Shown piece by piece: positions 8,963-28,296 of a stretch of 64,000 bases of DNA (position 1 is its first letter; every line of letters starts with the position of its first letter). The stretch covers positions 97,061-161,060 of the forward strand of contig JBBEBG010000040.1 of assembly GCA_040882465.1 (NCBI GenBank), written 5' to 3'. Under the pieces are notes generated by a model. The model saw only the letters and a list, made by a program, of their open reading frames with translations. It was not told the origin of the DNA and did no database searches. Source of the DNA: Gemmatimonadota bacterium (GTDB lineage Bacteria > Gemmatimonadota > Gemmatimonadetes > Longimicrobiales > Gaopeijiaceae). The translations under genes were made by a program, and so were the position numbers.

Positions 8963-11526
<2,564 letters not shown>

Positions 11527-23993: not shown

Positions 23994-24166
23994 GGGTGAT
24001 CCTTGTTCACCTTCCCCGAACGTGCATAGCTTCGGGGATTCGAAACCGTCCGAGGCGGGTACGGAACTTGCTCCCTATTCGATGTGGAGAGCGCACGAGG
24101 CGGTTGAATCCCAAGAATTTCAGGCGACCGATTCCGGTGATGAACCGAGGGTGGAGCGCGGGTGCG

Positions 24167-26422
24167 ATGGCCGGGCCGATGGCCCCGGTCTTCGTGGAGG
24201 GGTTGAGCGGGGTGGGGGCGCCCAGGAGGACGGAGCCTACACCGCGTCGTTTAGGCGTACCGTCCGTCGCCCCGGCATCCGAAGAGGCGATGGCCCCTCC
24301 TCCTCCTGCCGAACGAGGAAACGGGGACGGAGTGGACCACATCGAAGAGATCGCAAAGGAAGCGGCGCGCATCCTTCGCGTGGACCGGGTGGCGGTCTGG
24401 ACCCAAAGTGGAGCCGAGGGAGCGCTCCGCTGTCTTCTGCGGCACCATCGCCGTGAGGGGACGATCTCCAGGCCGGGCGTTCAGCCCGACGAGGTGGCGC
24501 GGGCCTTTGGCGAGTCCCTTCGGGAAGAGGGCACACTCACCTCCGAAGACTCCCCCCGCAATGGACCGGAAGCCCTTCGCGGTTGGATCGCCGAAGAAGG
24601 CATTCGCGCCTTCATCGCCGAGCCCCTACGCGTCCAGGAGGAGCTCGTCGGATTCGTGACCTTCGAGGAGGACCGAGGTCCCCGACGGTGGACGCCTCAT
24701 GCGCGGGAGCTCGCCGTATCTCTCGCCGGTCAGATCGGAGCCGCGATGAGGGAACCGGAAAGGCCCGTCCGCGTCGAGCGGTCCGCCGGGCCAAGCCGGC
24801 CGGCCGACCTTGGTGAGCCTTCCGCGACAGAGATCGCCTCCGGAGCGCCTGCGCCGCCGCAGCGCATGCGGACGGAGGCTCCGATGCCCGAGGGCGTGTC
24901 GTCCTCGGTCTCGACCACCGGGCTCGCTTCTCACGCCACCGACAGCTTACGTCTCCACGCGATCGAACCCGAAGGGCCCCAGCTCCCCCGAAACGTTCGG
25001 GCCGAACCCGAGGGGCCCGAACCCGCGTGGCACGAAGTCCCGACCCACGAAGCGGAAAAAATCGTGCAAGCCCCGGAGCTCGCGCGAGCGGGGACGACCC
25101 GCGATCCCGCTCCGGCCGAGACAGGCGAGGCGGCCCCGCGCGGTAATGTGGGGCCCGACCGGCGGTCCGAGCCTCGACGACTTTCGCGGCTCGAGAGCGC
25201 CGCGCTCCTCGCCAGTGAATCCGTTCCTGAGCTCCTCCGGATTCTGGAGGTCCAGCGGGGAAGCTTTCGCCTTCTCGAGGACTCTCTTGCCGGACGCGAA
25301 GGCGAGCTCGACATCTTGATGCAGGCGAAAGAAGCGGCGCATCGGGTCGAGTCCGCCCTGAAAGACTTCCTGGTCCACCTTCGGAGAGGGGTCGGAAGCG
25401 CCGATCGGGTCGAGCTCAATGTGGTGCTGTCCACCATGATCGCATCTCTCGCGGAGGAAGCGGGTGACAAGGTGCGCCTGCGGGTCGCCCCTGGCGCCGA
25501 TCCGATTCCCGTGAACGCGGACCCCTCACTCCTCGAGCACGCGCTCCTACACCTCGTGCGCAACTCTCGTGAGGCGGCGCCCGATGGAACCGACGTGCGC
25601 CTCTCCTGGGGGCGCGTTTACGCAAGCGGGAGCGGGGCCCCGGCCGAAACGGGGCTCGTCCGGATCCGGGTGGAGGACCGTGGCGAGGGGATGCCACCGG
25701 AACAGCTTCCGTGGGTCCTCGAGCCCTACCACTCCCTGACGGGCGAGGAGGGAGAGCGCCGTGGACTCGGACTCGCGGTGGTGCGGGCGATCATAGAGGG
25801 TCACGGCGGATGGCTAGAGATCGGGTCACGACCGGGCGAGGGAACCGTGGTGGATCTCTTCCTCCCCATTTCCGGGGCCCCTGCGGCAGTGGTGACAGCG
25901 CCCGTAGCCGCCCCCGAAGCACCGAAGGCCGTGGCCACTCCCGTGGGGCCCGCGACCGTCCTCATCCTCGAAGACGAGCCACTGCTCGCACGCCTCATCG
26001 AGCAGATTCTTGCCCGGAACGGGTACCGCACCGAATTGGCGGGCGGGGCCGCCGAGGCGGAACGCCGCTGGCACCGGCTCGAAGGCGGGCTCGATCTCGT
26101 CATCGTGGAGCGCGAGCTCGCCGGGGGACGCTCCGGGCTCGACCTGGTCCGGAGGTGGCGGAGGGAGTCCCCCGAGCTGCGCGCGGTCGTGCTCGATCGC
26201 CGCGCGACTCCCGACGCGGAAGGGGAGCCCCAGTCCATCGAAGGATTCCCCATGCTCCAGCGTCCCTTCGATCCTTCGGACGTCCTCAAGCGGGTCAGGG
26301 AGGAGTTGGCGGGTCGGGCCGACGATGCCTCCACGGAGGACACGAGTCCCGAAGAGCCCACGACCCCTCCCTCCACACTTCCCGAATCGCCTGGCCAGAC
26401 CGGGCGAATGCTCGCGCACTAG
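24167..26422 (+). CDS. degenerate GAF/HATPase/receiver sensor protein
   Basis: A protein of about 751 residues. An N-terminal GAF-like domain (DHIEEIAKEAARILRVDRVA through PLRVQEELVGFVTFEED) is followed by a long Pro/Glu-rich linker and a helical segment. Then comes a GHKL ATPase domain: N-box HLVRNSREAAPDG, G1 VEDRGEGMP, G2 RGLGLAVVRAIIEGHGG. The C-terminus is a receiver-like domain (VLILEDEPLLARLIEQI). The helical segment has no H-box histidine, and the receiver phosphoacceptor position reads VIVERELAGG, Glu in place of Asp, so normal phosphotransfer looks unlikely. The ATG at 24167 (GGAG 10 nt upstream) is one of several possible starts; another is 24140. Divergent from tetR. Confidence 0.8.
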   Translation: MAGPMAPVFVEGLSGVGAPRRTEPTPRRLGVPSVAPASEEAMAPPPPAERGNGDGVDHIEEIAKEAARILRVDRVAVWTQSGAEGALRCLLRHHRREGTISRPGVQPDEVARAFGESLREEGTLTSEDSPRNGPEALRGWIAEEGIRAFIAEPLRVQEELVGFVTFEEDRGPRRWTPHARELAVSLAGQIGAAMREPERPVRVERSAGPSRPADLGEPSATEIASGAPAPPQRMRTEAPMPEGVSSSVSTTGLASHATDSLRLHAIEPEGPQLPRNVRAEPEGPEPAWHEVPTHEAEKIVQAPELARAGTTRDPAPAETGEAAPRGNVGPDRRSEPRRLSRLESAALLASESVPELLRILEVQRGSFRLLEDSLAGREGELDILMQAKEAAHRVESALKDFLVHLRRGVGSADRVELNVVLSTMIASLAEEAGDKVRLRVAPGADPIPVNADPSLLEHALLHLVRNSREAAPDGTDVRLSWGRVYASGSGAPAETGLVRIRVEDRGEGMPPEQLPWVLEPYHSLTGEEGERRGLGLAVVRAIIEGHGGWLEIGSRPGEGTVVDLFLPISGAPAAVVTAPVAAPEAPKAVATPVGPATVLILEDEPLLARLIEQILARNGYRTELAGGAAEAERRWHRLEGGLDLVIVERELAGGRSGLDLVRRWRRESPELRAVVLDRRATPDAEGEPQSIEGFPMLQRPFDPSDVLKRVREELAGRADDASTEDTSPEEPTTPPSTLPESPGQTGRMLAH

Positions 26423-26583
26423 TGTGGTGGAGCAGAAGTCCTGTTCAGCACCGAGAGCGCTGATGCGCCGCTCTGGCAAGGCGCACCGACGAGGAATAGC
26501 AGAGCTATTGCGAGCGAGGTGCAACGCACCCAGAGCGGATGCAGCGGCGCTCGAATGCCACAGGACTTCTGCTCCACTACACT
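26421..26583. repeat. 163-bp near-perfect palindromic element
   Basis: The ends are 24-nt inverted arms (26421-26444 and 26560-26583) with a single mismatch, opening with AGTGTGGTGGAGCAGAAGTC. Shorter paired blocks continue inward to an exact centre AATAGC-AGA-GCTATT (26495-26509), which coincides with the midpoint of the element. It overlaps the stop codon of the kinase gene and ends 10 nt before the stop of the convergent permease. It has no coding content. It could act as a bidirectional hairpin terminator or be a non-autonomous mobile repeat. A related copy lies at 21359-21584. Confidence 0.88.
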
Positions 26584-26592
26584 AAGGCCGGC

Positions 26593-28296
26593 TCAGCTTC
26601 TCCCCCGGCCGATCAGCTTCGACAGGAGAATGACCGGCGCAAGCCCCGTCGCGATAATGAGAAGCGATGGGAGGGCAGCGCGCGCAAGCTGTTCATCCAT
26701 TGCGAGTTGAAACGCACGGGTCGCAAGCGTGTCGAAGTTGAAGGGGCGAAGGATGAGAGTCAGGGGAAGCTCCTTCAGGACGTCCACGAAAACGAGAAGT
26801 GCCGCCGCCAGGAGGGTGCCCCGCAGGAGGGGCACGTCCACCCTCGTCAGCGTCCGAAAGGGAGAAGCGCCCAGCGAGCGGGAGCTCTCGTCCAGGTGCG
26901 CGCAGCTCCGTTCGAACCCCGATTCGATCGGATTCAGCGCCACCGCGAGGAATCGCACGAGGTAAGCGAAGAGGAGCGCCCCGACCGTCCCCGTGATCAG
27001 GAGCCCCGTTGGGCCGCCGCCCAGCCCAGCCACGACCGCCGCGATGCGCCGGTCCAGCCAGATGAAAGGGATGAGGACGCCGACGGCAATCACGGCGCCG
27101 GGAATCGAATAACCCAAGGAGGATGTCCGGGCCGCGAGCCGGAGGAGCCGCGTCGGCGCGAGCCGGACGGAATAGACGATGAGGAGCGCGGCGACGATGG
27201 TGATTCCCGATGCGCCGATCGCGAGCACGAAGGAGTTCAGCGTCAGGCGAAGGAACCGATCGTCCACGTAGCCGGGCGCGGACCGTGCCGCCCACGCCGT
27301 GAGCTGGAGTACTGGAAAAGCGAACCCGAAGGCGACGGGAATCGCGCACGCCGCGGTCGCCCCCCACCCTCTCCATCCCCGGAGGCCGAAGCGCGCGACC
27401 GGCCGCGCCCGCCCGGTGACGTCGTCGAAGCGAGCTCGTCCACGCTGCCAGCGCTCCACGAGGATCAGCGCAAAGACGAAAATCAGGAGGAGGGCGGCGA
27501 GCCGGAGAGCCGCCGGCGGATCCCCGAGGGCGAACCATGCGCGGAAGATCCCCGTCGTGAACGTCGTCACCCCGAAGTAGCGCACCGCTCCGTACTCGTT
27601 GAGCACCTCCATGAGGACGAGCGTGACTCCGGCCACAATCGCCGGGCGCGCCATCGGGAGCGCCACCCGTGAAAAGGTGGCCCAGGAGGACCGCCCGAGA
27701 ATTCGTGAAGTCTCGAGGATTCCCCCCGACTGCTTCAGGAAGGAGGTCCGCGTGATGAGGTACACATAGGGGTAAAGCGCGAGCGCCAGGATCAGGCCGA
27801 CCCCGGGGAGGGTCATGAGCCTCGTCCGGATTCCCGCGGTAGAGGAGGGGTCGAGGACCAGTTGGAGGGTGCCCTGGATCGGCCCCGTATGCGAGAGAAT
27901 TCCCGCGTACGTGTAAGCCATGATGTACGTCGGGATGGCGAGAGGGAGGATCAACGCCCACTCGAAGAGGCGCCGACCCGGAAATGCGCACGTCGTGACG
28001 AGCCAGGCGGTGCCGACGCCGATGACCACGGTCATCAGTGCGACGCCGACGACGAGGAGGGCGGAGTTCCGGACATAATCCGCGAGGACGGTCGAGGCGA
28101 GGTGGCGCCAAGTATCGCTCGACTCGCCCAGGACTCCGAGGAAGATCGAAACGAGCGGGAGGAGGACGAGAGCGACCGTGAGAAGCGTCGCGATCGTCCA
28201 GGGAGTCAACGAGACCCGAAGGGCAGGTCGGTTGCGACTCCGCCTGGGAAGGTCGGGCCCGCGCGCGCGTCGTTCTTCGAGGGACTCTACCGCCAT
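26593..28296 (-). CDS. iron(III) ABC transporter permease, FbpB type
   Basis: A 567-residue inner-membrane protein with two fused permease halves (about 12 transmembrane helices). Each half has an EAA-type coupling loop: ILGRSSWATFSRVALPMARP in the first and SLGASPFRTLTRVDVPLLRG in the second. Fused two-domain permeases of this length are typical of FbpB/SfuB/FutB ferric-iron importers. The start overlaps the last 10 nt of the binding-protein gene, so the pair is cotranslated. No ATP-binding subunit is encoded next to it; it must be elsewhere or shared. The gene ends beside a long palindromic repeat. Confidence 0.92.
   Translation of the reverse strand: MAVESLEERRARGPDLPRRSRNRPALRVSLTPWTIATLLTVALVLLPLVSIFLGVLGESSDTWRHLASTVLADYVRNSALLVVGVALMTVVIGVGTAWLVTTCAFPGRRLFEWALILPLAIPTYIMAYTYAGILSHTGPIQGTLQLVLDPSSTAGIRTRLMTLPGVGLILALALYPYVYLITRTSFLKQSGGILETSRILGRSSWATFSRVALPMARPAIVAGVTLVLMEVLNEYGAVRYFGVTTFTTGIFRAWFALGDPPAALRLAALLLIFVFALILVERWQRGRARFDDVTGRARPVARFGLRGWRGWGATAACAIPVAFGFAFPVLQLTAWAARSAPGYVDDRFLRLTLNSFVLAIGASGITIVAALLIVYSVRLAPTRLLRLAARTSSLGYSIPGAVIAVGVLIPFIWLDRRIAAVVAGLGGGPTGLLITGTVGALLFAYLVRFLAVALNPIESGFERSCAHLDESSRSLGASPFRTLTRVDVPLLRGTLLAAALLVFVDVLKELPLTLILRPFNFDTLATRAFQLAMDEQLARAALPSLLIIATGLAPVILLSKLIGRGRS

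Follow-up and report, generated by a model that had tools for sequence, protein, structure and literature searches.

The palindrome and its position

The stretch of DNA analyzed here (the window, 64,000 nucleotides from a Gemmatimonadota bacterium) carries a long palindrome between two convergent genes, and the locus raises the question of what this element is and how it came to lie on a stop codon. A preliminary description placed a near-perfect palindrome of 163 bp at 26421-26583; the palindrome is real, but its true ends lie one base further out on each side, and the exact element, a complete copy, spans 26420-26584 (165 bp, TA...TA; plus strand in the orientation of the aligned family core). 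The term "near-perfect" suits the outer arms (26420-26443 and 26561-26584, 24 nt each), which mismatch at one position only, but not the core, which is an imperfect hairpin: its internal loops and small indels lower the ungapped self-complementarity of the full 165 bp to 53%. The symmetry centre, AATAGC-AGA-GCTATT, is located at the midpoint, as had been described. Between the two terminal TA dinucleotides (26420-26421 and 26583-26584), the left terminal inverted repeat or hairpin arm GTGTGGTGGAGCAGAAGTCCTGT (26422-26444, plus strand) and its right counterpart (26560-26582, minus strand) enclose a family-conserved core hairpin (26445-26559, plus strand), whose inner helix covaries and whose internal loops are conserved but not complementary.

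Folded as single-stranded DNA, the element reaches -60.7 kcal/mol, compared with -36.9 +/- 3.5 for shuffled sequences (z = -6.8; none of 200 shuffles folded as stably). When the 64 kb were scanned for inverted arms of 24 nt, with at most 3 mismatches and a spacing of up to 220 nt, 8 matches were obtained, and the six listed were all registers of this same element; these two results rule out a chance palindrome. The element has no gene of its own, is shorter than about 300 bp and possesses terminal inverted repeats, which places it within the size and content limits of bacterial miniature inverted-repeat transposable elements (MITEs).

The upstream gene encodes a hybrid sensor histidine kinase (GAF, HATPase_c, response regulator; 23996-26422, plus strand, start codon uncertain), whose stop codon TAG (26420-26422) is formed by the left end of the element; its first two bases are the left terminal TA. 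On the other side, an ABC transporter permease (BPD_transp_1; 26593-28296, minus strand) is convergent, with its stop codon 9 bp beyond the element. The preliminary description had thus located the start of the palindrome correctly, inside the kinase stop codon.

Copies and distribution of the family

The nucleotide search of the genome and its relatives, which had been proposed as a check, revealed a multi-copy family with conserved ends. The own genome (3.53 Mb in 41 contigs, a draft with 4.55% estimated contamination) contains nine copies that are complete at both ends; three of these nine are a 232-bp form with an extra hairpin, and at least two deletion derivatives are also present. Copies were found in 23 of the 58 genomes searched, the own genome included, in agreement with the earlier reading as a dispersed repeat. 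BLAST combined with TA-ended inverted arms delimited 49 distinct copies. The arm subtypes of the family include CCCGTCCC, GTGGAGC (the window copy) and CCCGAGTC. A search of 84,980 species genomes with the core pattern matched 31 stretches, nearly all in Gemmatimonadota-type records, the exceptions being one Thermoanaerobaculia MAG (four contigs) and one Latescibacterota contig; no match was obtained in the plasmid and phage collections. Our literature search, whose coverage is incomplete, found no description of this MITE family, and a full-text search for such elements in Gemmatimonadota returned only two passing mentions.

In G016, G001 and G050, many contigs begin or end within the element (L063-L071). 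It is important to consider that copy numbers are underestimated and assemblies broken at the element, because contigs of draft genomes end inside it; for the same reason, assemblers and gene callers will encounter it. In another genome, G036 (L148-L153), we observed a graded series of derivatives with internal deletions, the longest about 166 bp and the shortest 37 bp, and each of them retains both ends at TA.

Target site and empty counterparts

Among 37 full-length copies, 30 begin with TAGTGT, and the insertion target is CTAG (C|TA|G), since a C precedes the left end in 31 and a G follows the right end in 30. The insertion element IS630 reportedly prefers a TA within CTAG as well (Tenzen and Ohtsubo 1991, cited in PMC2170065). 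This tetranucleotide is depleted in the own genome, where 82 occurrences were seen in the 195 kb examined versus 610 expected from base composition.

One case concerns a copy in G025 that lies on the stop codon of groEL, whose protein ends ...GGDMGGMY-stop. The site is empty, ATGTACTAG, in each of the 21 sister species whose groEL end could be read, and the filled site of G025 reads GTAC[TA]GCGT...ACAC[TA]GCCGC, with two TA dinucleotides versus one in the empty sites; in three sister species the groEL alignment extends past the junction at 88-89% identity. The groEL sites prove insertion with TA duplication. The two permease genes that flank the L088 copy likewise occur elsewhere with an empty site between them; in G083, CTAG is found at that spot. 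At the window locus, the convergent kinase-permease junction occurs without the element in five relatives (G109, G027, G009, G107 and G098), which support both terminal TAs here as the same kind of duplication, and the insertion polymorphism that had been proposed as a check is therefore seen at this locus as well as at groEL and L088. The kinases of all five relatives end in His-stop, as the window kinase does. When the window flanks are joined at a single TA they read CAC-TAA-GGCCGGCTCAGC, and the corresponding sequence in G109 is CAC-TGA-GGGGCCGGTTCAGC; to judge from these two junctions, the element most likely entered the TA of a TAA stop codon, which became TAG through the G at the start of the element.

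Overlap with stop codons

Position on stop codons is the distinctive feature of the family. With genes called by a simple codon-usage caller, 35 of the 63 gene 3' ends that face an element stop exactly on its terminal TAG, none ends inside, and seven convergent pairs have the stop codons of both genes on the element. Elements lie on a stop codon in 29 of 67 cases, compared with 39 of 290 empty CTAG sites (odds ratio 4.9, p 3e-7), and with intragenic sites excluded the odds ratio is 3.0 (p 5e-4), these p-values being indicative only because the copies are related and the sampling is uneven. Part of this excess may reflect survivorship, insertions elsewhere being harmful. Truncation of genes by a chance in-frame TAG was considered and rejected, both by the 0 of 63 facing genes that end inside an element and by orthologues that share the same final residue or motif (GroEL GGMY-stop, kinase His-stop).

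The stop-codon overlap, remarked on only in passing in the preliminary description, is not incidental and follows from insertion specificity. Insertion occurs at the TA of (C)TA(G), and a G follows the TA on both strands of the element; for this reason, an in-frame TAG is rebuilt from either side when the stop codon that is hit is TAG or TAA. CTAG is rare in these GC-rich genomes, and stop codons offer a favoured and harmless landing place. Target choice and terminal bases that rebuild the stop codon together make this a clear sequence-level case of how a selfish element can spare its host.

A candidate helper of the IS630 family

An intact IS630-family element is present in the own genome (C31:4427-5601 in G000; 1175 bp), with a 363-aa transposase that scores 266 bits against NF033545 (cut-off 100). 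Its ends, TAGTGTCCCGTCCCAGAGAT and TAGTGTGATGTCCCAGAAGT, match the MITE arms TAGTGTCCCGTCCCAGAAGT over 16-20 bases. Relatives of this transposase in the order also have TAGTG-type ends, and all 13 clearly delimited IS630 relatives are flanked as C|TA...TA|G. The match of IS630-type ends and target is strongest for the CCCGTCCC subtype; for the GTGGAGC subtype of the window copy, only a near match was found among the IS ends (TAGTGTAGTGTTGCAGAAGT in G020, 2 differences in 20). In G089, a member of the same genus as G025, an IS carries TAGTGTTGTGTCCCAG, which is also seen in the MITE of G025. The likeness between IS and MITE is confined to about the first 20 bases, after which they diverge, and the MITE is therefore not a simple internal deletion of the own-genome IS630. 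At E 1e-20, no members of this IS630 clade were found in the copy-rich genomes G013, G016 and G036.

Based on these terminal likenesses, the MITE is most likely mobilised in trans by IS630-family (Tc1/mariner) transposases, which would cut it out and paste it elsewhere. Multiple copies, TA duplications, the CTAG preference, empty orthologous sites, and terminal repeats and a target common to intact IS630s lead us to consider the element, with high confidence, a non-autonomous MITE with IS630/Tc1-mariner ends. What had been offered as a mere "perhaps", a non-autonomous mobile element, is thus supported by copy number, by TA duplication at polymorphic sites, by the compensatory changes described below and by a candidate helper in the own genome. 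A palindrome of the REP/REPIN type, or an IS110 target, mobilised by a Y1 (RAYT) or IS110-type enzyme would also be long and imperfect, and an IS110-family transposase does adjoin a copy in G025; however, this association occurs at one locus only, and the TA duplication, the IS630 terminal identity and the CTAG target make such an origin extremely improbable.

Compensatory change and the role of the hairpin

Compensatory change, another of the proposed checks, is pronounced. In 37 copies, 93.6% of the pair cells are standard pairs versus 79.1% in shuffled alignments, 36 of 52 pairs show double changes versus 21.2, and 259 cells are changed on both sides versus 77.8 (none of 500 shuffles reached such values; slid controls gave no more than 66). 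The arms (helix 1 of this analysis) vary strongly among copies after their conserved start, both sides together, and the inner helix covaries at 15 of 18 pairs; the non-complementary loop sequences of the core are conserved. Inner-helix covariation is not explained by recognition of the terminal repeats alone: either selection on the hairpin or template-switch correction of palindromes could yield it.

The core hairpin is maintained by compensatory change, and a rival reading takes it as useful to the host at gene ends, as a transcription barrier, a stabiliser of mRNA 3' ends or an RNase target, kept for its function in the transcript. The strong covariation of the inner helix agrees with this, as does the frequent location at gene 3' ends, and arm mismatches in 53 copies, read on the core-defined strand, are more often G.T than A.C (52 versus 14; 36 versus 14 as distinct local events). 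Against it, the orientation of the core relative to flanking genes is random (17 versus 16, and 18 versus 17), which argues against a role at the transcript level; orthologous junctions exist without the element; and many copies are found at other positions, some of them upstream of genes. Nor does the window element contain a T-run or a terminator-like site, in line with the preliminary description, and the reading as an intrinsic terminator, which calls for a GC-rich stem followed by a T-run, was rejected. We consider a host-useful hairpin very improbable, and the earlier proposal that the palindrome doubles as a transcription barrier is left unsupported.

The other route, in which the compensatory changes come from quasi-palindrome correction by replication template switch and the element is otherwise a plain MITE, is compatible with the IS630-type MITE reading, and we give it real, if minority, weight. 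Arms differ between subfamilies as matched blocks, and G036 is rich in the internal-deletion derivatives typical of hairpin slippage; however, the loops on the two strands of the core have not been corrected in this way, being conserved across genera without becoming complementary.

Starting from the MITE reading, we may tentatively, and with more doubt than assent, propose a lineage specialised for stop codons. Insertion would be neutral for both flanking genes owing to the palindromic TAG ends, even where two convergent genes have a single CTAG in common. The core hairpin, selected independently, would persist across the order, and the two arms would be exchanged together as the element came to use other transposases, with IS630 ends in one case and a second terminal type, in G025, in the other.

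Relationship to known elements

The closest known system is RUP of Streptococcus pneumoniae, a 107-bp element with 9-bp repeats in a low-GC Firmicute, whose helper is IS630-Spn1 (PMC2229807, PMC3049150). Like the present element, RUP is short, gene-less and intergenic, has TA ends and a duplication, carries repeats like those of a resident IS630 and is enriched between convergent genes (PMC2229807, PMC3049150); in contrast, the element described here is 165 bp long and GC-rich, with covarying arms of 21-23 bp, a conserved core and a precise overlap with stop codons. The Correia/NEMIS and ERIC elements are also palindromic MITEs with TA ends, target duplications and transcripts foldable into long hairpins, and Correia, like our element, exists in a shorter form and a longer one with an internal insertion (107/155 bp, versus 165/232 bp here) (PMC2229807). 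They occur in other hosts, and a helper IS for them is not recorded in the PMC2229807 review; our element has no credible match in Rfam. BOX elements of pneumococcus provide the stop codon for 36 annotated genes, none of them evidently truncated, but they are modular boxA/B/C repeats with ISSpn2 as helper, and they do not form a TAG exactly at a target TA (PMC3049150). The autonomous Tc1/mariner insertion sequences IS630 and ISY100 insert at TA with a 2-bp duplication (PMC2170065) and, unlike our element, carry a transposase gene. The family described here is new but belongs to a kind already known (RUP/IS630-Spn1-like), and its stop-codon-restoring insertion habit is unusually well documented. 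With its many genomes and its filled and empty sites, the family also provides a large natural data set on the coevolution of terminal repeats with IS630 transposases.

Additional observations

In G025 (OX639991.1), head-to-tail arrays of 2-5 units of about 171-174 bp were observed at L055:4491-5345 and at L056, L057, L058 and L059. The units carry the family core with a different terminal type, (TA)GCAGYCCGYGGAYRAA, and their joints lack TA; the arm GCAGYCCGYGGAYRAA has 62 exact matches genome-wide. At L060:3169-4680 of the same genome, a TAGTGT-type copy is joined directly, through a common TA, to a second copy that has the other terminal type and is interrupted; this pair is followed by a gene for an IS110-family transposase. 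Elsewhere in the window, a TPP riboswitch is located at 11428-11524 (minus strand), with 64.4 bits, above the Rfam gathering score.
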